Part shown: positions 12,520 through 21,354 of the stretch, piece by piece
Layout of the letters: each line of letters opens with the position of its first letter
How positions within the stretch are numbered: position 1 is the first letter of the stretch
Assembly (NCBI RefSeq): GCF_039535475.1
Contig: NZ_BAAAXG010000026.1
Span: 248,001 to 312,000, forward strand
From: Streptomyces showdoensis
GTDB taxonomy: Bacteria; Actinomycetota; Actinomycetes; Streptomycetales; Streptomycetaceae
Length of the DNA stretch: 64,000 bases
Direction of reading: 5' to 3'
Notes under the pieces: model-generated
Told to the model about the DNA's origin: nothing
The model's database searches: none
What the model saw: the letters and a program-made list of their open reading frames with translations, nothing else
Program-made: the position numbers and the translations under genes

Positions 12520-13097
12520 CCTACCGACACGTGGCACTCATGGGCCGCGCGGGCTCCGGTAAGGACACCGTGGGCAGTCGGTTGGTGCAGCGGTTCGCGT
12601 TCGCCCGTATCGCGTTCGCGGACCCGCTGCGCTCCCTCGCCCTCGATGTGGACCCCATCGTGGGACACGAGCCGACCGGCTTCGAGCCGATCCCGCTCCG
12701 TCTGTCGGACGTGGTCCGGCGGGAAGGGTGGGACCGGGCCAAGGGGCGCCCGGAAGTACGCCGTACGTTGCAGCGGCTCGGGCAGGGAGTCCGCGACCAG
12801 GACGAGCGGTATTGGCTCCGGCTCGCCCTCGCCAAGCTCGACGTAGCCGAGCGGTGGCACATCCCTGCCGTCGTCACAGACTGCCGGTACGAGAACGAAG
12901 CCCGCGCGCTGCGGGCCCGCGGCTGCCTCCTGGTGCGCATCGAGCGTCCGGGCGAGCACGGCCCCGCCGGCGAGGACGAGCGGCAGCACCGCAGCGAGAC
13001 CGAGCTAGACGACTTCCCCACGGACGCCTTGCTGACCAACGGCGGGTCCGTGGACGAGCTGTACGCGCTTGCGGACCGGCTCGCCGTACCGCGCTGA
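12516..13097 (+). CDS. Deoxynucleoside monophosphate kinase
   Basis: The GTG at 12,516 overlaps the holin stop. The 193-residue protein opens with a Walker A loop (GRAGSGKDT, residues 10-18) and has FADPLR, a typical dNMP-kinase substrate segment, and TDCRYENEA, the conserved DxRxxNE-type motif. Phages use this enzyme to supply dNDPs for replication. It is common in actinophages of the phiC31 and R4 type. The lid region around residues 60-90 is Arg-rich as expected. It is the last gene before the long inverted repeat. Confidence 0.85.
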   Translation: MTYRHVALMGRAGSGKDTVGSRLVQRFAFARIAFADPLRSLALDVDPIVGHEPTGFEPIPLRLSDVVRREGWDRAKGRPEVRRTLQRLGQGVRDQDERYWLRLALAKLDVAERWHIPAVVTDCRYENEARALRARGCLLVRIERPGEHGPAGEDERQHRSETELDDFPTDALLTNGGSVDELYALADRLAVPR

Positions 13098-13102
13098 TCA
13101 GC

Positions 13103-13209
13103 GCGAGGGGATGACGGCATGACGACCAGGCTGCCGTTTTGGTTTTCTCTCTATTTTCTTAGACGCATACCAAAAAACAGTCTGAACCGTCATCCCGTCA
13201 TCCCCTCGC
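13103..13209. repeat. Long imperfect inverted repeat, about 107 bases
   Basis: The 22-base arm at 13,103-13,124 is complementary to 13,188-13,209 with one mismatch. Inside it, 13,127-13,133 pairs with 13,178-13,184 (one G-U), and 13,137-13,143 pairs with 13,169-13,175. The loop (13,144-13,168) is pyrimidine-rich and AT-rich, unlike the surroundings. There is no gene here. It could be a strong transcript end, a processing site or the remnant of a miniature mobile element. Confidence 0.8.
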
Positions 13210-13240
13210 CACCACACACATTCACGAGGGGGACACGCCC

Positions 13241-14077
13241 ATGCCCGGAGCCATCCGGACTATCAAGCGCGGCGGCAGCCGCTTCTACGTCAACCCGAGC
13301 ACCGCCGAAAAGGTGCCGGGCGTTACGTCTATCGTCTCGATGCTCCCGAAGCCGTACCTGACTTTCTGGGCTGCTCGAATGACCGCGGAAACCGCCGTGG
13401 AGAACCTTGACGCCGTACGGGCTATCGCCGAGCGCGACCCCGCGGGCGCCGTGGACTTCCTGCGCAACGCGCACACCCGATACACCAAGCTCCGGGCAAA
13501 GGTGGGGTCGGACGCGCATGACATGTTCGAGCGCATGATTCGACTGGAAGAGATCGGCCGAGTCCACCCCGACCTGGAGCCCTACCGAATCGGCTTCGCG
13601 GAATTCCTTACCGCTGTGCGCCCGCAGCTCGTCCGTGCCGAAGACGTGGCGTGGTCGGACGAGCACCGGTACGCGGGCTCTTTTGACGCCATTGTGCGCG
13701 TGCGGCTCGGCGAGGACGGTAAGCCCGACCATGAAAACGGCGAGTGGCACACGCTCGTTGTTGACTGGAAGACGAGTAAAAGCGCTTATCCGGACGTCGC
13801 GCTACAGCTTGCCGCGTACGCGCACGCCGACCGGCTGATTTCCCCGGACGGTACTTCCGAGCCCATGCCGCACATTGACGGTGCTGCGGTTCTGCACATC
13901 ACGCCCGAGGGGTGGGTGTTCAAGCCGGTCCGGATCGATGAAGAGATCTTCAATGTCTTTCTGACGCTGCGGCACGTCTTCCACTGGGACCGCGATCTTT
14001 CCAAGACCGTTTTCGGCGTCCCAATTGCAGAGAGCGTCCGCCGGCTTGTCACAGGTACGCAGCGGCGAGCCGCTTAA
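13241..14077 (+). CDS. RecB-family (Cas4-like) PD-(D/E)XK exonuclease
   Basis: The ATG lies behind AGGGGGA (13,227-13,233). The 278-residue protein shows the nuclease core: an early His motif (GSDAHDMFE, about residue 91), GSFDAIV (Asp near residue 147), VVDWKTSK (the D-x-K motif, about 174) and QLAAYA (motif QxxxY, about 187). These are the conserved features of phage RecB/Cas4-type exonucleases, which act in recombination or DNA end processing. No single-strand-annealing partner is obvious next to it. Confidence 0.8.
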   Translation: MPGAIRTIKRGGSRFYVNPSTAEKVPGVTSIVSMLPKPYLTFWAARMTAETAVENLDAVRAIAERDPAGAVDFLRNAHTRYTKLRAKVGSDAHDMFERMIRLEEIGRVHPDLEPYRIGFAEFLTAVRPQLVRAEDVAWSDEHRYAGSFDAIVRVRLGEDGKPDHENGEWHTLVVDWKTSKSAYPDVALQLAAYAHADRLISPDGTSEPMPHIDGAAVLHITPEGWVFKPVRIDEEIFNVFLTLRHVFHWDRDLSKTVFGVPIAESVRRLVTGTQRRAA

Positions 14078-14100
14078 CCAAACAGAAAACACCTAAGCAC

Positions 14101-14132
14101 GGACGAGCGCACCTAGGCGTCTCGTCCTTTTT
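14101..14132 (+). terminator. Intrinsic terminator
   Basis: GGACGAG (14,101-14,107) pairs with CTCGTCC (14,121-14,127), with CGC/GCG inside, followed by five Ts. Confidence 0.85.
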
Positions 14133-14152
14133 CATGCCCAAAACCAGGGGGA
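14128..14152 (+). repeat. Phage start-associated repeat, copy 3
   Basis: TTTTTCATGCCCAA begins at 14,128, followed by AACCAGGGGGA and the ATG at 14,159. Same module as at 941 and 11,381. Confidence 0.75.
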
Positions 14153-14158
14153 TACAGC

Positions 14159-14857
14159 ATGGCTCTGCGCATTTTCGAGACCGACCCGGACGCGATGCCG
14201 AAGGGTTCTTTCTCTGACGACACGGTGGGTCGCTTCCACTCGGGTCGTTCCGTTAACGGCATTCCGGAAGCGCTCTCCGCGTGGAAGGTTTCCACGGGTG
14301 ACCCGGACGTGGCGGACGCTATCGCTCATCTCATGGGCGGTACTCCCGAGGAGACCGATTCCACGTCGGAAAACTTCATCGAGATTCTGACAGAGGCGAA
14401 GCGCGTCAAGGTAGTTCTCGCTGGCGCGGACGCGATCACGTCGGACATGAAGCTGTGGAACGGCAACGTTCTCATTCACCACTGCGACGGTGTCGAGTTC
14501 CTTTCTCCGGATGAGGACCGGGGTAAGGCGTGCGGCTGCCCGGCCCTGATGGAGGACCGTAAGGCGGCTGCGAAGACGAAGCGCGGCCCGTCCCCGAGCA
14601 TTTCGGTTCTGTTCCGGCTCGCCGAGGATTACGACCTTGGCCTTTTCCGTTTCCAGACCGGTTCATGGAAGCTCGCCGAGACGCTGCACGAGATCGGCAA
14701 CGCGCTCGACAAGATCAAGGGCGAAGCCCTCGCCGAGCTGGGCATTGAGCTGGTGGAGTACACCACCAAGAAGGGCCGAGACGTCTCGTACTTCAAGCCG
14801 GTTGTAAAGGTTCTCAAGTCCTGGAACGACGCGGTTGCGGAGCCGACTCCGTTCTAG
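14159..14857 (+). CDS. Gp3-like recombination directionality factor (phiC31 type)
   Basis: This 232-residue protein matches what I know of the phiC31 gp3 family: an N-terminal IFETDPDA motif, VGRFHSGR, STGDPDVADAI and HLMGG, a CGCP cysteine pair (about 122-125), and a helical C-terminus with FTT/YTTKKG-type segment. Gp3 binds the serine integrase and switches it from integration to excision. Its presence implies a large serine integrase elsewhere in this prophage; none is in the window. The ATG has AGGGGGA upstream. A replication-related second role cannot be excluded. Confidence 0.75.
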   Translation: MALRIFETDPDAMPKGSFSDDTVGRFHSGRSVNGIPEALSAWKVSTGDPDVADAIAHLMGGTPEETDSTSENFIEILTEAKRVKVVLAGADAITSDMKLWNGNVLIHHCDGVEFLSPDEDRGKACGCPALMEDRKAAAKTKRGPSPSISVLFRLAEDYDLGLFRFQTGSWKLAETLHEIGNALDKIKGEALAELGIELVEYTTKKGRDVSYFKPVVKVLKSWNDAVAEPTPF

Positions 14858-14863
14858 CCGGCC

Positions 14864-14894
14864 GAGGGGCCTGGCACGGTTCGGGCCCCTCTTT
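14864..14894 (+). terminator. Intrinsic terminator
   Basis: GAGGGGCC (14,864-14,871) pairs with GGCCCCTC after a 12-base loop (14,884-14,891), followed by TTT. Confidence 0.7.
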
Positions 14895-14909
14895 CACGGG
14901 GGTATCCAC

Positions 14910-15446
14910 ATTCCGATTCTGGAACTGTGCGCCGGATACGGCGGAATCGGTCGGGCCGTAGAGGCACTGACCGGAGAGAGAATCAGATACGTTGCGGAAG
15001 TCGATCCGTATGCGTCTCTGATCCTCGCCAACCGGTATCCGCACGCACCGAATCTCGGAGACATTACCAAATACGACTGGTCCACCATTTCTGGTGAGGT
15101 GGACATCATTACGGCAGGTTTCCCCTGCCAGGACATCAGCAACGCAGGGAAGCGGGCGGGGATTCACGGTGCGAGGTCGGGTATCTGGGAAAGCGTACTC
15201 GGGGCCATTCGCGTTCTTCGACCACGGCTCATTTTCCTGGAGAACGTATCCGCCATCCGAAACAGGGGCCTCGCGCACGTACTCGCGGGACTGGCCGAGG
15301 CACGGTACGACGCAAGATGGTGTTGCCATCGGGCTTCCGCAACTGGAGCCGCCCACCACCGCGATAGATGGTTTCTCATCGCTTCCCCTACTCCCCACCC
15401 CTCTGGCGTCAGACGCCACGAAGGGGCCGGACTTCGCGAGGGATGA
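14910..15446 (+). CDS. Cytosine-5 DNA methyltransferase, catalytic part (motifs I-VIII)
   Basis: The product (about 178 residues) carries motif I (LELCAGYGGIG), motif IV with the catalytic Cys (AGFPCQDISNAGK), motif VI (FLENVSA) and motif VIII (HHRDRWFLIA). It stops at 15,444-15,446 without target-recognition domain or motifs IX-X, which lie in another frame downstream. The only start with good spacing to the GGGGG site (14,898-14,902) is ATT at 14,910. A TTG at 14,835 would need the terminator hairpin to be translated. It may be one subunit of a split enzyme, or a damaged gene. Confidence 0.65.
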   Translation: MPILELCAGYGGIGRAVEALTGERIRYVAEVDPYASLILANRYPHAPNLGDITKYDWSTISGEVDIITAGFPCQDISNAGKRAGIHGARSGIWESVLGAIRVLRPRLIFLENVSAIRNRGLAHVLAGLAEARYDARWCCHRASATGAAHHRDRWFLIASPTPHPSGVRRHEGAGLREG

Positions 15447-15963
15447 GCGGGACGGTAGCGGCGGGCAGGACCTCGTTACCGCCGTGGCGCGACTATTCGA
15501 CAAAGAACGCGCACACCAACTCTTCAAGACACCGACCGCAAATCTGGGAACGAACGGCGCTCCGCAACATCCGGATAAGCGACGTGCGGGCGGACACGGG
15601 CCGACTCTCGATGATGAGGTTTCCTATCTGCTGCCCGTAGACCCGGAAGTGGCCGAGGAAACTCCGGGCGCCTTTCATAGTCCCCGCGAGTGGTGGGCGG
15701 ACTACGCGCCGGCTGTGCATCGCTGGGAAGTGCTTATGGGTACCCCGGCCCCGATTCCTGTGGAGTTCGGCCCGCGCGGTGGTCGACGTCTCGCCGCAGT
15801 GTTCGCGGAATGGCTTATGGGGTTGCCACGGGGGTGGATCACTCACATTCCGGGGCTCAACCGTGCTCGGCAGCTCAAGGCAGTCGGTAACGGAGTGGTG
15901 AGCCAACAGGCTTTCGCGGCCTACCTGCATCTACTGAATCACAAGGGGGACGAGCATGGGTAA
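15169..15963 (+). CDS. Cytosine-5 methyltransferase, target-recognition and motif IX-X part, overlapping frame
   Basis: This frame begins before 15,094 but GTG at 15,169 has a GGCGGGG site (15,156-15,162), giving 264 residues. It has the tail typical of phage methylases: SFSWRT, then YSRDWPRHGTTQDGVA, LLPTPLASDA, motif IX-like EWLMGLPRGW and motif X-like AVGNGVV. It overlaps the catalytic part by 278 bases in another frame, and both frames look conserved in the overlap. A +1 slip at CCC-C (15,393-15,396) would join them into one chain. The 3' end overlaps the next gene by eight bases. Confidence 0.6.
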   Translation: MRGRVSGKAYSGPFAFFDHGSFSWRTYPPSETGASRTYSRDWPRHGTTQDGVAIGLPQLEPPTTAIDGFSSLPLLPTPLASDATKGPDFARDERDGSGGQDLVTAVARLFDKERAHQLFKTPTANLGTNGAPQHPDKRRAGGHGPTLDDEVSYLLPVDPEVAEETPGAFHSPREWWADYAPAVHRWEVLMGTPAPIPVEFGPRGGRRLAAVFAEWLMGLPRGWITHIPGLNRARQLKAVGNGVVSQQAFAAYLHLLNHKGDEHG

Positions 15964-16237
15964 GCGCGGTGTTGTCACCGACTACAGCGGCGAGGAACTT
16001 TACCGAGACGATCTAGTGGCGTATGCCGCTCGACAGGGGAACCGAGTTCGGATGGTTGACGCCATCGTGGACAAGGTGACGACGCGGCTTGTTGACGGGC
16101 GTCTTCGCGCGATGCTGCGCGTACAGCCGACCGGAGTTGAGTCCGGATTCACGAAGCGCCGGTCCCTCCGAAAGGAGTGGATTAGCGCCGAACACGTGCG
16201 GCTCATCATCCCGGCTGTTACGGGCGAGCGGCACTAA
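15956..16237 (+). CDS. Small basic phage protein, unknown function
   Basis: AGGGGGA (15,944-15,950) precedes the ATG. The 93-residue protein is beta-rich with many Arg and Val residues (VVTDYSGEELYRDDLVAYAA, then VDAIVDKVTTRLV). It looks like a small RNA- or DNA-associated barrel, but I do not recognise the family. It is co-directional with and overlaps the methyltransferase, so it is likely co-expressed. It ends just before a strong hairpin. Confidence 0.6.
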   Translation: MGKRGVVTDYSGEELYRDDLVAYAARQGNRVRMVDAIVDKVTTRLVDGRLRAMLRVQPTGVESGFTKRRSLRKEWISAEHVRLIIPAVTGERH

Positions 16238-16250
16238 GAGCGACGACCAG

Positions 16251-16292
16251 GCAGAGGGCCGGGCGACCGAAACGGGTTGTCCGGCCCTCTGC
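16251..16292 (+). terminator. Strong hairpin between phage genes
   Basis: GCAGAGGGCCGG (16,251-16,262) is perfectly complementary to 16,281-16,292. No T-run follows. Confidence 0.6.
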
Positions 16293-16307
16293 TGTGTGGG
16301 GGGACGA

Positions 16308-16493
16308 ATGATCTACGAAATATCTGCCGACTACGCGCCCCCTATCGGGGACGTGCGCGAACTGTCGGCCGGCGACGAGCTTCACCTTTACGACGGTTGG
16401 AAGTCTCGTCCGGACTGGCTGCGGTATCTCGCTGCGGCAGCACACGCCATGGGCCGGGGCTGCGTCATCCGCCAGGGGGCCGACCTTGGCTAA
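16308..16493 (+). CDS. Small phage protein, unknown function
   Basis: The ATG at 16,308 lies behind GGGGGGA. The 61-residue product is mostly hydrophilic (IYEISADYAPPIGDVRELSAGDELHLYDGW) with a short helical end. It overlaps the nuclease gene by eight bases. No family recognised. Confidence 0.5.
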   Translation: MIYEISADYAPPIGDVRELSAGDELHLYDGWKSRPDWLRYLAAAAHAMGRGCVIRQGADLG

Positions 16494-17010
16494 CCCGAAC
16501 AAGGCACGCGGTACGGCATGGGAGAGCGCCGTACGGGACTTCCTGAATCGGTTTCTCGGGCTGGTCAACGAGCGCGGCACGTTCGTGGACCCCTTCGACG
16601 GCATGAACATCCGCCGGGCTGCGCAAGAGGGCGCCACGGACGTGGGCGACGTGCACGCGGTCCCGTTCATTCTCGAATGTAAGGACGTGGCGAGCGCCGC
16701 TGTTCCGACGTGGCTGCGGCAAGCCGAAGTCGAAGCCCGGCACGCGGGCTTCCCGTACGGCGTGGTCGTGCACAAGACCCGCCGGGCCCCGGTCCACGCG
16801 GGCCGCGTCCACTTCACTGTCCGTACGTGGACCCGGGTCCGGCTCGCCCTCGGGCACACGAGCCGCACCATGGCCGAGCTGTACGGCGGCACGTTCACGG
16901 TGCGCGGGCTCGACACGGGCCGCTGGTACGTGTCCCTGCCCCTGTGGGACTTCGCGTCTCTGCTCGCGGACTACCGCGCTCGCTCGGGGGTGAGCCGTGC
17001 TGTTCGCTGA
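16486..17010 (+). CDS. PD-(D/E)XK endonuclease, Holliday-junction-resolvase-like
   Basis: A TTG start gives 174 residues. The fold core is visible: KARGTAWESAVRDFLN (helix with Glu, residue 12 region), DVGDVH (Asp, about residue 50) and FILECKDV (E-x-K, about 63-67). This pattern is that of archaeal Hjc/phage resolvase-like nucleases, which cut branched DNA before packaging or during recombination. It sits directly before the primase-helicase. A general nuclease of the VRR type is the alternative. Confidence 0.7.
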   Translation: MANPNKARGTAWESAVRDFLNRFLGLVNERGTFVDPFDGMNIRRAAQEGATDVGDVHAVPFILECKDVASAAVPTWLRQAEVEARHAGFPYGVVVHKTRRAPVHAGRVHFTVRTWTRVRLALGHTSRTMAELYGGTFTVRGLDTGRWYVSLPLWDFASLLADYRARSGVSRAVR

Positions 17011-19432
17011 TCTGCTCTCCCGCTTCGACGACGTCGCCGAGCACCAGGACGGCGGGTACGTCGCACGCTGCCCCGCCCACGACGACGGACGCCCGAGCCT
17101 CCGCCTATGGCGGGGCGAGGACCTGAAAGTACGGATCACCTGCCGTGCCGGCTGCGATACGGGCGACGTGATCGGCGCGGTACGGCTCGGCTGGTCCGAC
17201 CTATTCGACGTGTCCGGCCCCGGAGCTACGGTGTCCGCCGCCCGGCCCGAGCTGGTACCCACGCGTCTGGTCGCTGGTCTCGGCGCGTACGTCGACCGGA
17301 CGTCGGCAGCCCTCGGGGACTGGTCGTCCGAGTGGGCCGGGCGAACCCGGGACTATCTCGCGAAGCGCTTCGGCCTCGATGTCGAGACCGCGATAGATCT
17401 CGGCATCGGCGTGGACCCCGGGGACCAGGGTGACGTGTTCCCGTACTTGTCTCGGCAGTACCGGGCTCACCCCCGGCTCACTGTCCCGCTGCACGGGTGG
17501 GACGGAGTGGCCCGAGGACTACAGGGACGGGACCTCTCCGGCGACTGCCCCGCGCGGTGGCTCTCCCTGGTCAACCCGCGCGGTCACCGCTGGTCCCCGT
17601 ACGGCGTGTTCCGCGGCGCGGGCGGATATGGCACGGTCCTGGTCTGCGAGGGTCCCGGAGACGCGCTCACGGCCGTTGCGTGCGGGTATGACGCCGTGGC
17701 CATCCGCGGTGCTTCCCTCGCCGGCTCGCCCGAGCTGGTGGCCGAGCTTGCCGAGGGGCTGCGAGGCTCGCTCGTCATCCTCGCCGGCGACGCTGACCGG
17801 GCGGGCTCGGGCTTCACCGCCCGGCTCGCTGCCGGTCTCGCCGAGCATGGAGTTACGGCGTACGCGCTCGAAATTCCGCGCCCCGGTTGGGACTTGACCG
17901 ACTGGCGCGAGGATGGGCCCGAGCGGTTCGCCACCGAGCTACACCGTGCGGTCAAGGCAGCCAAGCCCGTACGCGGTTCCGCGGACGCCGAGGACGAAGC
18001 CCGCTCCGCCGAGCTTGCCGAGCGCACCGGAGCCGAGTCGGTCACCCGGGACCAGGGCGCCGAAGCCGCCGAGATCCTGGCCCGGCTCGTGGGGCAGCTC
18101 GGCGAGAGCGACGCCATGAACGCGCACGCCTTGATCGCGTGGTGCGGGGGCCGCATCCGGTACGCCGCGGGGCTCGGGTTCTACACGTGGGATGGCTCGG
18201 TGTGGGTCCGCAGTGACACCCGCGTCCGGCAGGAAATCCACCGCATGGGGGCCGCTCTCGTCCTCGCAGGACAGACACAGGCTGCTCGCGGGTTCACGAT
18301 GACGAGCCGCATTGACTCACTCATGACGGAACTCAAGTCGGTTCCGTCTGTGCGGGTAGAGGCAGCCGATTTCGACAACCGCCCGGATTTGCTCGCTTTC
18401 AGGAACGGGGTCGTGGATCTCCGCACGGGTCGGCTCCGTCTGCACGACATGCGCGACATGCTCACGTACGGGCTCGACCTTGATTACCGGCCGGAAGCGG
18501 TGTGTCCGCGGTGGGAAACCTTCCTCGCCGAGATCTTCCCCGGTATGCCGGACATGCCCGCATATATTCAGCGTCTCGTGGGCTACGGCATTACCGGACA
18601 CGTCACGGAACAGAGCTTCGCCGTGCTTTGGGGGAAGGGAGCCAACGGGAAGTCAGTGCTTGTCGACACCCTCACGGCCGTATTCCGCGCTATCAGCAAG
18701 ACGACGCCGTTTGCGACGTTTGAAGCGAAGTCCAGCGGCGGCATTCCAAACGACATTGCGGCACTACGCGGTGCCCGGCTGGTCATGGCGTCCGAGGGTG
18801 AGAGCGGGGCGCCCATGTCCGAAGCGATCCTAAAGCGGGTAACCGGTAAGGACATGATCTCGGCCCGCTATCTGCGACGGGAGTTCTTCGAATTCAAGCC
18901 GTCGTTTCTCCTGATGCTCGCGACCAACCACAAGCCGAAGTTTAAGAGTCAGGACGAGGGGCTTTGGCGTCGCGTCAAGCTGTTGCCGTTCCTGCGGTAC
19001 TTCGCTCCCCACGAGCGGGATACCGAGCTGGACGCGAAGCTACTGGAGGAAGCCGAGGGCATCGCCGCTTGGGCGGTCCGCGGGGCCGTCGACTGGTACC
19101 GGGGCGGGCTGCGAGACCCGCAGGTCATCACGGGTGCCTCACAGGAGTACCGGGAGACGAGCGACCAGCTAGCCGGCTTCTTCCCCGGTGTCCTGGAGCC
19201 CGCCGACGACGACCACGTGATGAACGGCAACGAAGCCTTTAACGCGTATCTCGAATGGTGCGAAGCCGAAAACCTACCCGCAAAGGAACGGTGGACCCGA
19301 CGCGCCTTCTATGACGCCATGGAAGAACGCGGAATCTACCGCCGAAAGACCATGCGCGGTATCGCTCTCGTGGGTCTCCGGGAGGCCGACGCGAGCCCCG
19401 ACGCAGCGGGGCCGGGAATCTTCGCCAACTGA
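16997..19432 (+). CDS. Phage DNA primase-helicase (zinc finger, TOPRIM, SF3/D5-type helicase)
   Basis: The GTG start overlaps the nuclease gene by 14 bases; the product has 811 residues. In order: a zinc-binding start (CPAH at about 24-27, CRAGC at 46-50), a TOPRIM domain (VCEGPGDALT about 218; LAGDADRAG about 257), a D5-type N-domain (about 360-470) and a superfamily 3 helicase (Walker A GKGANGKS about 545; LVMASEGE about 595; LATNHKP sensor about 640). It should prime and unwind phage DNA. Together with the polymerase downstream it forms a near self-sufficient replisome. Confidence 0.85.
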   Translation: MLFADLLSRFDDVAEHQDGGYVARCPAHDDGRPSLRLWRGEDLKVRITCRAGCDTGDVIGAVRLGWSDLFDVSGPGATVSAARPELVPTRLVAGLGAYVDRTSAALGDWSSEWAGRTRDYLAKRFGLDVETAIDLGIGVDPGDQGDVFPYLSRQYRAHPRLTVPLHGWDGVARGLQGRDLSGDCPARWLSLVNPRGHRWSPYGVFRGAGGYGTVLVCEGPGDALTAVACGYDAVAIRGASLAGSPELVAELAEGLRGSLVILAGDADRAGSGFTARLAAGLAEHGVTAYALEIPRPGWDLTDWREDGPERFATELHRAVKAAKPVRGSADAEDEARSAELAERTGAESVTRDQGAEAAEILARLVGQLGESDAMNAHALIAWCGGRIRYAAGLGFYTWDGSVWVRSDTRVRQEIHRMGAALVLAGQTQAARGFTMTSRIDSLMTELKSVPSVRVEAADFDNRPDLLAFRNGVVDLRTGRLRLHDMRDMLTYGLDLDYRPEAVCPRWETFLAEIFPGMPDMPAYIQRLVGYGITGHVTEQSFAVLWGKGANGKSVLVDTLTAVFRAISKTTPFATFEAKSSGGIPNDIAALRGARLVMASEGESGAPMSEAILKRVTGKDMISARYLRREFFEFKPSFLLMLATNHKPKFKSQDEGLWRRVKLLPFLRYFAPHERDTELDAKLLEEAEGIAAWAVRGAVDWYRGGLRDPQVITGASQEYRETSDQLAGFFPGVLEPADDDHVMNGNEAFNAYLEWCEAENLPAKERWTRRAFYDAMEERGIYRRKTMRGIALVGLREADASPDAAGPGIFAN

Positions 19433-19446
19433 CGCACACCACATAC

Positions 19447-19485
19447 GCGGGTCGTCCACCAATTCACGGTGGGCGGCCCGCTTTT
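19447..19485 (+). terminator. Intrinsic terminator
   Basis: A 14-base arm (19,447-19,460) pairs with 19,468-19,481 with two G-U pairs, followed by TTTT. Confidence 0.8.
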
Positions 19486-19500
19486 CGTTTAGGGGGACCC

Positions 19501-21354
19501 ATGCTGACTTTCCGCCACACCGTGGCCGGCGAGTCGGTCACCGTGAACGTGCCCGAGGACACCACCGATCTCAAGCTCTTTTGGGATTGGCTCAACCGGG
19601 CCCGGGAACGGGGACCGATCGCGCTGGACACCGAGACAACCGGACTCAACATCTACTCGGCCGGCTATCGGCTCCGTACCGTGCAATTCGGCGACGCACA
19701 CGAAGCGTGGGTGCTGCTGTACGAACAGGGCGGATACCACGCACAGTATGCTCGGGAGGCAATCCCGCGGTGCCGCGAAGTACTCATCCACAACGCTGCC
19801 TTTGACTGGCTCGTCCTGGACGAGCACGCGGGCATACGGCTGGAAGATCTCGCGCCGCACACCACGGATACGCGCATCCTCGCCGCGCTTATAGACCCGC
19901 GGCAGCCATCCGAGGGCGGGGCAGGAACCGCGCTCAAGCCCCTTTCAGCGAAGTGGATTGACCCCGCGGCCCCGGACACGCAGGGCGGGCTTACGCGCGT
20001 CTTCAACAGCTTGGGGTTCACGAAAGAGACCGGGTGGGCCGGTATCCCGCTCACGCACCCCACGTACCTTCTGTACGCCGGTCTCGACGTCATCTTGACG
20101 GCTCGGCTCGCTCCGGTGCTCCGCCGAGAGCTGGACCGGCTCGGCGTCCGGCACCAGCTCGTCACGTACGAACACGAGATAGCCCGCATCTGCGCAGTGA
20201 TGCAGCGCGCGGGGCTGCTCGTGGACCAGGACTACACGTCGACCCTCGCGGGCCGGCTCGCCGAGGAAGCCGAGCGCTACGCGACCGTGGCAGCTCGATA
20301 CGGCGTGACGAAGGTGGGCAGCTCGGCGCAGGTGACCGAAGCCCTCTTGGGCATGGGTGAGCGGCTAACCGAGCGGACCAAGGGCGGGGCGCTCGCAACG
20401 GATAAGACTGTCCTACTCCCGCTTGCCGACCTTGATCGGGACTGGCAGCGCATCGGGGCTCGGCAGCCAAATGCCCTCGCAGACGCGGTGCTTCGGGCCA
20501 AGCGGGCCGGCAAGTGGGGCAAGACCTACGCCGAAGCATTCCTAGCGAACCTCAGCACCGCGGGACGTATCCACCCCACCGTGTCGCCCCTCGCGGCACG
20601 GACAGGCCGCATGTCCGTCACGGCCGGACTGCACCAACTCCCGTCCTCGGATCACATGATCCGCCGCGCGATCCTCGCCGAGCCCGGACACGTCATGGTG
20701 TCGACCGACTTTCAGGCCGTGGAAATGCGGGTCCTCGCAGCACTCGCCAACGTCCGCCGCATGAAAGAAGGGTTCATCAACGGTGGCGACGAGTTCGACA
20801 TTCACACGTACACGGCAAAGCTGATCAAGGGCGAGAATGCAACCCCGCGGCACCGGAAGATTTTCAAGGGCGCTGGATTCGGAAAGGTGTACGGGGGTGG
20901 AGTCGCGACGATCGCGAAGCAGACCGGTGCCGAGGAAGCCGAGATTGCGCAAGCGGTAGCCGCTTACGACCGGGCTTTTCCGGAGATCAAGCGCGCGTCG
21001 TCGCGGTGGCAGCGACAGGCTTTCCAGAACCGTATGGTCTTCATTTCTGCGACCGGTCGCCGGCTCCCGTTGGACCGGGACCGCACTTACAGTGTCGTGA
21101 ATTATGCCTGCCAGTCTGCGGCGCGTGATCTGCTCGGCCAAGCGCTACTCAACATCGAGGGTGCCGGGCTGCTCGAATACTGCCGCCTCCCTATCCATGA
21201 CGAAGTCTTGGCGTCCGTGCCGCAGCGTGACGCCGAGGACATCGCGCGGGAGTTCCAGCGCTGCATGTCTATGGACCTGTACGACGTGCCCATCACGGCT
21301 GACCCCGAGATCGGCGGTCGCTCGTGGGGCTCGCTGTACGGCGCTGACTACTGA
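19501..21354 (+). CDS. Family A DNA polymerase with 3'-5' exonuclease
   Basis: AGGGGGA (19,491-19,497) precedes the ATG; the protein has 617 residues. The exonuclease domain has ALDTETTGL (about residue 41) and HNAAFDWLVL. The polymerase domain has motif A (STDFQAVEMRVLA, about 400), motif B (KIFKGAGFGKVYGGG, about 455) and motif C (PIHDEVL, about 563). There is no 5'-3' flap nuclease domain, as is usual in phage versions. Motif A differs from the classic DYSQIELR but keeps Asp and Glu. It is the replicative polymerase of this phage. Confidence 0.9.
   Translation: MLTFRHTVAGESVTVNVPEDTTDLKLFWDWLNRARERGPIALDTETTGLNIYSAGYRLRTVQFGDAHEAWVLLYEQGGYHAQYAREAIPRCREVLIHNAAFDWLVLDEHAGIRLEDLAPHTTDTRILAALIDPRQPSEGGAGTALKPLSAKWIDPAAPDTQGGLTRVFNSLGFTKETGWAGIPLTHPTYLLYAGLDVILTARLAPVLRRELDRLGVRHQLVTYEHEIARICAVMQRAGLLVDQDYTSTLAGRLAEEAERYATVAARYGVTKVGSSAQVTEALLGMGERLTERTKGGALATDKTVLLPLADLDRDWQRIGARQPNALADAVLRAKRAGKWGKTYAEAFLANLSTAGRIHPTVSPLAARTGRMSVTAGLHQLPSSDHMIRRAILAEPGHVMVSTDFQAVEMRVLAALANVRRMKEGFINGGDEFDIHTYTAKLIKGENATPRHRKIFKGAGFGKVYGGGVATIAKQTGAEEAEIAQAVAAYDRAFPEIKRASSRWQRQAFQNRMVFISATGRRLPLDRDRTYSVVNYACQSAARDLLGQALLNIEGAGLLEYCRLPIHDEVLASVPQRDAEDIAREFQRCMSMDLYDVPITADPEIGGRSWGSLYGADY

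Follow-up and report, generated by a model that had tools for sequence, protein, structure and literature searches.

The closest described systems to the locus reported here are two C5-cytosine DNA methyltransferases made of two polypeptides, M.EcoHK31I and M.AquI. In M.EcoHK31I (E. coli, YGGCCR) the small chain is encoded in an overlapping frame of the large chain; for M.AquI, we know of no long, doubly constrained overlap. According to the available part of PMC3404938, the alpha chain of M.EcoHK31I carries motifs I-VIII, motif X and the predicted TRD, with motif IX in beta, and M.AquI has motifs I-VIII in alpha and IX-X in beta. Among phages, the same two-frame layout and beta start position as in our locus occur in phiBT1 gp9.1, Samora 34/35, Vash 32/33, Lilbooboo 32/33 and other SEA-PHAGES gene pairs. 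In Paenibacillus phage Lily, gp63 is recorded as a 'g62 internal gene' in the +1 frame of gp62, with motif IX in the inner frame and motif X in the outer one; this differs from our locus in being an EcoHK31I-like split, and gp63 is recorded as a hypothetical protein. The ShiLan element, too, conceals an additional protein in a different frame of a phage methylase, but that protein is an inserted HNH endonuclease and not a methylase chain (PMC11855218, available part).

The arrangement is thus already known in kind, through the two-chain layout of M.EcoHK31I and through phage cases that annotators partly saw (Lily gp63 and seven phiBT1-like records). As far as our literature searches show, its breadth, its conserved internal start and its moving frame boundary are new. 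The family is undescribed in the literature covered, including the available parts of PMC2884959, PMC3711429, PMC5009743 and PMC6070908; few subscription papers were among these sources, which are weak evidence of absence.

A catalytic chain and a probable second chain in the +1 frame

The window, meaning the whole stretch of 64,000 nucleotides of Streptomyces showdoensis DNA that was analysed, is contained in an 8.5-Mb genome. Its region from 13,001 to 21,000 is similar to phages of the phiBT1/phiC31 kind and to other phages (237 records at E 1e-5, 0 of them with 80% coverage). The methylase is neighboured by an exonuclease (13,241), and near it are a phrog_9220 protein (14,159), whose counterpart at the same place in phage Samy is named a recombination directionality factor, a RusA-like resolvase (16,486) and, at 16,997-19,432, a primase. 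The methylase of the window lies upstream of the primase, whereas in phiBT1 and Samora it is found between primase and polymerase. In the phiBT1 record (1224-1724), the alpha chain carries the remark 'DNA methylase may be inactive', and no beta gene is annotated, the beta frame being open alongside.

Chain alpha (14,910-15,446, forward strand) is the catalytic part of a C5-cytosine DNA methyltransferase, with motifs I-VIII followed by a short unconserved tail. It matched the Pfam family DNA_methylase (PF00145) at 2.3e-30, the match extending to residue 158, and phrog_363 at 5.9e-51. Motifs I, IV (PCQ), VI (ENV) and VIII were all found in this frame, motif IV as GFPCQ at 15,117-15,131 and motif VI at 15,240-15,248, where the identical bases encode part of SWRT in the other chain. 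Chain beta (15,169-15,963, forward strand) is read in the +1 frame and consists of an overlap-encoded N-terminus, a TRD-like middle and motifs IX and X; it is supported by PHROG, tblastn and start-codon comparisons. Residues 6-261 of beta matched PHROG 1008, 'DNA methyltransferase', at 1.3e-45, and a search of Pfam up to E 10 gave no match. The middle of beta includes an LLPTPLASD module (15,388-15,414; alignments A1/A2) and a block, KTPTANLG...HPDKRRAGGHGPTLDDEV (15,526-15,621), that is conserved in the beta frame and is called TRD-like from its position before motif IX. The motif IX region (RRLAAVFAEWLMGLPRGW, 15,784-15,837) and the motif X region (GNGVVSQQAFAAYLHLL, 15,886-15,936) were assigned by eye. 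An earlier sequence-only reading had put motifs I-VIII in one frame and the phage-methylase tail with motifs IX-X in the other, and we found them placed as it claimed.

That reading had also named M.AquI and M.EcoHK31I as precedents, and by description both fit the motif splits given in the available part of PMC3404938. The motif split of the window, I-VIII in alpha and IX-X in beta, is identical to that of M.AquI, which differs in that its variable region is divided between its subunits (PMC3404938, same part). As in M.EcoHK31I, the window has a two-chain C5 enzyme with overlapping frames, and beta begins inside alpha in another frame; the likeness is drawn from published descriptions. Unlike in M.EcoHK31I, alpha of the window ends after motif VIII, and beta continues past the alpha end and carries the TRD-like part and both motifs IX and X. 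We count the locus as a variant of the M.EcoHK31I/M.AquI kind because its overlap is like the former and its motif split like the latter, as far as the published descriptions go.

A structural model of beta built with 25 sequences had a mean pLDDT of 56.5, with residues 151-230 at about 69-86. The overlap-encoded residues 11-55 were modelled at about 53-69, with four short strands, and residues 56-130 fell below 50. Foldseek returned 57 matches to this model up to E 10, none of them at 0.001; among the matches listed, these weak hits were mostly DNMT3 catalytic domains. A sequence search of the PDB with beta found nothing up to E 1.

We consider it very probable that the locus encodes one C5-cytosine DNA methyltransferase of two chains, with beta produced by internal initiation inside alpha. 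Alpha, started at the ATT at 14,910, would supply cofactor binding and catalysis (motifs I-VIII). For beta, ribosomes would initiate within alpha, at the GTG at 15,169 that follows a Shine-Dalgarno-like site, and translate the +1 frame; this second chain would contribute target recognition together with motifs IX-X. Association of alpha and beta would yield the active enzyme, as described for the two-polypeptide enzymes M.EcoHK31I and M.AquI. From the features above we infer that both chains are made, pair and methylate DNA, and that the middle of beta reads the target sequence. Several findings tell against this explanation: the window has lost the ATG of its relatives and depends on the next codon, GTG; one of the 33 loci compared below has no start at that place; the predicted TRD of M.EcoHK31I is in alpha (PMC3404938, available part), whereas here it is placed in beta; and the overlap-encoded N-terminus of beta was modelled with moderate confidence only.

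Probable initiation of the two chains

In the beta frame, seven relatives have an ATG where the window has ACG, which is followed by the GTG at 15,169. An ATG or GTG at beta codon 85 or 86 was found in 32 of 33 loci, compared with 6.4 expected by synonymous redraw; the sole locus without one is L031. These 33 are the loci of this alpha type among 47 (those with no indel there, plus L009), and the nominal probability of 5e-25 is far too small, since the place was chosen after viewing the same loci and the loci are related. The alpha residue at this point varies (H, N, D, S, R, Q, K, A), yet the bases keep forming a start. Upstream lies a Shine-Dalgarno-like GGGGA (15,158-15,162) within alpha, and anti-Shine-Dalgarno pairing ahead of the beta start was stronger than in redraws in 31 of the 33 loci (mean -10.1 versus -7.4). 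Beta thus most likely starts inside alpha, judging by this comparison of loci, and the GTG at 15,169, proposed earlier as a possible start of the second chain, is supported by both the conserved start codon and the stronger pairing. In other alpha types, a beta-frame ATG is formed by GA(A/G)AATGTN at ENV in 8/17 loci, three of which are closely related, and a beta-frame GTG by the S-A of LLSA/AYSA in 4/17; both counts stand without a null.

The start of alpha is probably a non-canonical ATT (14,910-14,912), as suggested by comparison of loci: the place is taken by ATT, ATA or ATC in the window and in 7/7 close relatives, and by GTG or ATG in 9 other loci compared. In six of these eight close-group sequences (L014, L015, L016, L023, L024 and L025) there is no ATG, GTG or TTG between the upstream stop and this codon. 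In-frame alternatives upstream exist in the window (a TTG at 75 nt) and in L013 (an ATG at 33 nt). A Shine-Dalgarno-like GGGGG precedes the window's ATT at 14,898-14,902, a G-run being present there in 8/8 sequences of the close group, with anti-Shine-Dalgarno duplexes of -8.4 to -10.7 (no null). Perhaps alpha initiation is non-canonical throughout this group, and it may set the alpha:beta ratio.

Records of related phages often omit or truncate one of the chains. Seven phiBT1-like records annotate beta, each with a start 210 nt downstream of the start found here.

Selection in the overlap and competing explanations

Codon positions were compared in a close group consisting of the window and seven relatives, two of which are 99.3% identical in alpha; the alignment is gap-free through the overlap. 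Alpha third positions were variable at 59/86 sites in alpha-only DNA but at 21/74 where the frames overlap (Fisher p=6e-7). Alpha first positions, which are beta third positions, were variable at 14/86 in alpha-only DNA, 26/74 in the overlap and 136/167 in beta-only DNA. Pairwise differences at alpha codon positions 1/2/3 were 0.069/0.035/0.324 before the overlap (alpha-only DNA), 0.152/0.050/0.120 within it and 0.407/0.074/0.044 beyond it (beta-only DNA). The drop in silent-site change starts at about 15,190, silent sites are almost frozen from 15,195 to 15,284, and the constraint on alpha ends near 15,390, ahead of its stop at 15,446. The changes that remain in the overlap include 65 that are nonsynonymous in alpha but synonymous in beta. 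A group of 10 phiBT1-like loci pointed in the same direction less sharply, with alpha third positions at 0.31-0.46 before the overlap and 0.18-0.29 inside it. The doubly constrained overlap, in which alpha motifs VI-VIII lie over the beta N-terminus, occupies 15,169-15,390, and it is under protein-level selection in both frames. That both frames are conserved there had been claimed from the single sequence, and the switch of codon positions from alpha to both to beta agrees on this with the synonymous redraws described below.

An unlikely alternative to internal initiation is programmed +1 frameshifting close to where alpha ends, which would fuse motifs I-VIII to the beta frame in a single methyltransferase. 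Read in series, alpha and beta would present their motifs in the usual order, 8/8 close-group sequences retain a CCCCT run at 15,385-15,389, and methyltransferases are listed among frameshift-containing genes in the available part of a frameshift-prediction paper (PMC10885494). A slip in this region leaves unexplained both the conserved beta start and the selection on the beta frame over 15,190-15,390, which is upstream of it, and the nested form of the locus described below would require another slip, this time backward, before motifs IX-X could be read. The particular slip site suggested earlier, CCC-C at 15,393-15,396, was rejected, as this run is absent in 7/7 close relatives. A minor +1 frameshift product may be made beside the product of internal initiation.

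More doubtful still is the explanation that the beta look is a by-product of GC-rich alpha codons in an ordinary methyltransferase gene split by a frameshift. Shifted by one base, the (L/V)ENV codons encode W(R/K)(T/M), and LAALGYD in GC-rich codons gives WPRSGT one frame over; the 'WPRxG'/'SWRT' look is partly such a by-product. Since the beta look follows in part from the alpha codons, a redraw test was applied: for each of 47 non-redundant loci, 200 sets of synonymous alpha codons were drawn, and 1,081 pairs were compared. A cut at 90% identity had reduced 62 loci to these 47, and 80 viral loci fetched with alpha to 62; L026, with alpha broken between frames, and L001, L012, L019 and L027, which are the window or duplicate copies, were excluded. 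Similarity in the +1 frame of the overlap was 98,415, compared with 47,688 in the redraws (sd 2,779; maximum 55,472). The overlap of the 47 loci contained 17 stops in the +1 frame where 42.5 were expected, and 35/47 loci had none compared with 18.9 expected; the +2 frame, as a control, had 54 stops, more than the 39.7 expected. Pair by pair the +1 effect was modest, with a median z of 1.91 and z>2 in 519/1,081 pairs; the control medians were lower (for alpha-only DNA 0.36 and 0.49, for the +2 frame of the overlap 1.14). Since related loci have DNA in common, the control frames also exceeded their redraws, to a lesser degree (72,123 versus 58,092 for +1 in alpha-only DNA; 68,440 versus 37,142 for the overlap in +2).

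A model of the beta N-terminus, made from its first 68 residues in alignment A2, scored above all 50 redraws in 60/62 non-redundant viral loci, with a mean of 66.9 bits compared with 15.4 for redrawn sequences. In the subset L101-L146, 35/37 loci were above all redraws; the two that were not, L101 and L137, favour a by-product, as does the redrawn average itself. The match in L137 lies far downstream (286-328), off motifs VI-VIII. Against a by-product stand the 60 loci, the freezing of alpha silent sites at the onset of beta, and L122, L131 and L144, which beat all redraws on contigs of 47-53% GC. The earlier claim that the two frames each give family-like residues between about 15,180 and 15,400 therefore keeps its core, a similarity above chance, and loses the part (15.4 of 66.9 bits) that follows from the alpha codons.

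Least likely of all, conservation of the overlap as an RNA or DNA signal and not as a second protein would suit the almost frozen silent sites but not the 65 beta-synonymous changes or the scoring of the overlap as beta protein across distant phages, and a known RNA element was rejected, no Rfam family being found in 14,800-16,100 up to E 1.

Spread of the arrangement and the moving frame boundary

In a tblastn search of 50,697 phage records at E 1e-5, alpha was found in 1,501 and beta in 570. Besides the copies of the window, the beta-like segment was offset by +1 from alpha in 53/53 loci (several of them duplicates); as all were found via beta, this count proves little by itself, and the loci fetched with alpha form the unbiased set. 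A sequencing error or one-off frameshift was rejected on this recurrence in other genomes, and the earlier argument that a simple frameshift would be insufficient is supported. Homologues with the same order in a single frame were looked for among the 80 viral loci, which are the best 80 of 583 fetched with alpha alone and include the window's contig and some earlier loci: the best match of the beta N-terminal model was in the +1 frame in 80/80 and in the alpha frame in 0/80.

The position of motifs IX-X varied. In the same 80 loci, a IX-X model matched in the beta frame in 37 (some of these matches being short: L107, L125, L135, L145), in the alpha frame in 38 and in neither in 5. In the window class, beta runs on through IX-X. 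In a nested group of 6 chromosomal loci from the window's genus, alpha stays open over 406-415 aa, and beta is a nested chain of 119 aa (three of the six loci). The constraint there passes from alpha to both, to beta only (about codons 160-205), and to alpha again through IX-X, an order that fits what two chains would require. The structural model of nested-class alpha was confident at residues 1-73, 90-164 (with a dip at 116-118) and 313-395, and below 50 at 165-312, so that it is predicted to be folded at I-VIII and at IX-X and unfolded between. The model supports an unstructured linker only in part, because the low-confidence stretch 165-312 is longer than the beta-only DNA. A third split, with IX in beta and X in alpha by eye, was seen in L163, L165, L166, L167 and L168, carried by a cyanophage, a Lacticaseibacillus plasmid, Paenibacillus and Stenotrophomonas phages and an unassigned podovirus. 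This is the motif split of M.EcoHK31I, except that the predicted TRD of that enzyme is placed in alpha (PMC3404938, available part). In the record of Stenotrophomonas phage SOVA965 (L167, 1090-1590), the gene annotated 'DNA-cytosine methyltransferase' is the beta frame, and no gene is annotated in the alpha frame, which holds motifs I-VIII and X.

Of the 80 viral loci, 53 had the TRD-like module in the beta frame and 8 had it in the alpha frame; in the other 19 no such module was found. By these placements, the recognition modules look as if they were able to sit in either chain. LLPTP/TRD-like modules occupy the alpha frame in L048, L052 and L053 (alignment A3) and also in L101, L105, L116, L123, L126, L127, L141 and L142, more loci having them in the beta frame.

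A wider proposition, which we regard as evenly balanced, is that these loci belong to a large and old overprinted family, in which many phage C5 methyltransferases are two-chain enzymes whose catalytic chain is overlain in +1 by the chain for target recognition, and in which the boundary has repeatedly moved. Motifs IX and X would then lie in beta, in alpha or shared between them, with LLPTP-type recognition modules in either chain. Many annotated 'full-length' methylases would carry a meaningless linker at the place of the recognition domain, the real domain being unannotated, and the target specificity of many phage methylases would be unreadable from the annotated protein, its recognition part lying in a hidden second frame. 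M.EcoHK31I would then be no single oddity but an instance of a general architecture, whose frame partitions form an evolutionary series open to testing, and tailed phages would offer a long overlap on one strand with a definable function for each product.

Beta-like segments were observed in 74/295 genomes of the window's genus, several matches in one genome being partly pieces of a single locus. In L026 (2243-2763), the N-terminal part of alpha lies in two frames (residues 1-50 and 44-174) and looks broken or mis-sequenced.

Six loci of more distant C5 enzymes were sampled with the beta N-terminal model in the +1 frame and 50 redraws each. The score was below the redraw maximum in Shinella (29.1 versus 34.0), Lacticaseibacillus (-0.3 versus 2.1), Bifidobacterium (2.6 versus 5.3) and Synechocystis (-0.2 versus 7.5), and above it in Synechococcus phage S-H1 (56.6 versus 35.2) and a Megaera plasmid (25.1 versus 21.5). 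In the Lacticaseibacillus and Synechocystis loci, alpha is nonetheless overlapped by a long ORF in +1 that encodes LLPTPTASDG or LLFPTPTA. On the Synechocystis plasmid (L162), the annotated ORF is the +1 frame, lying over an unannotated alpha.
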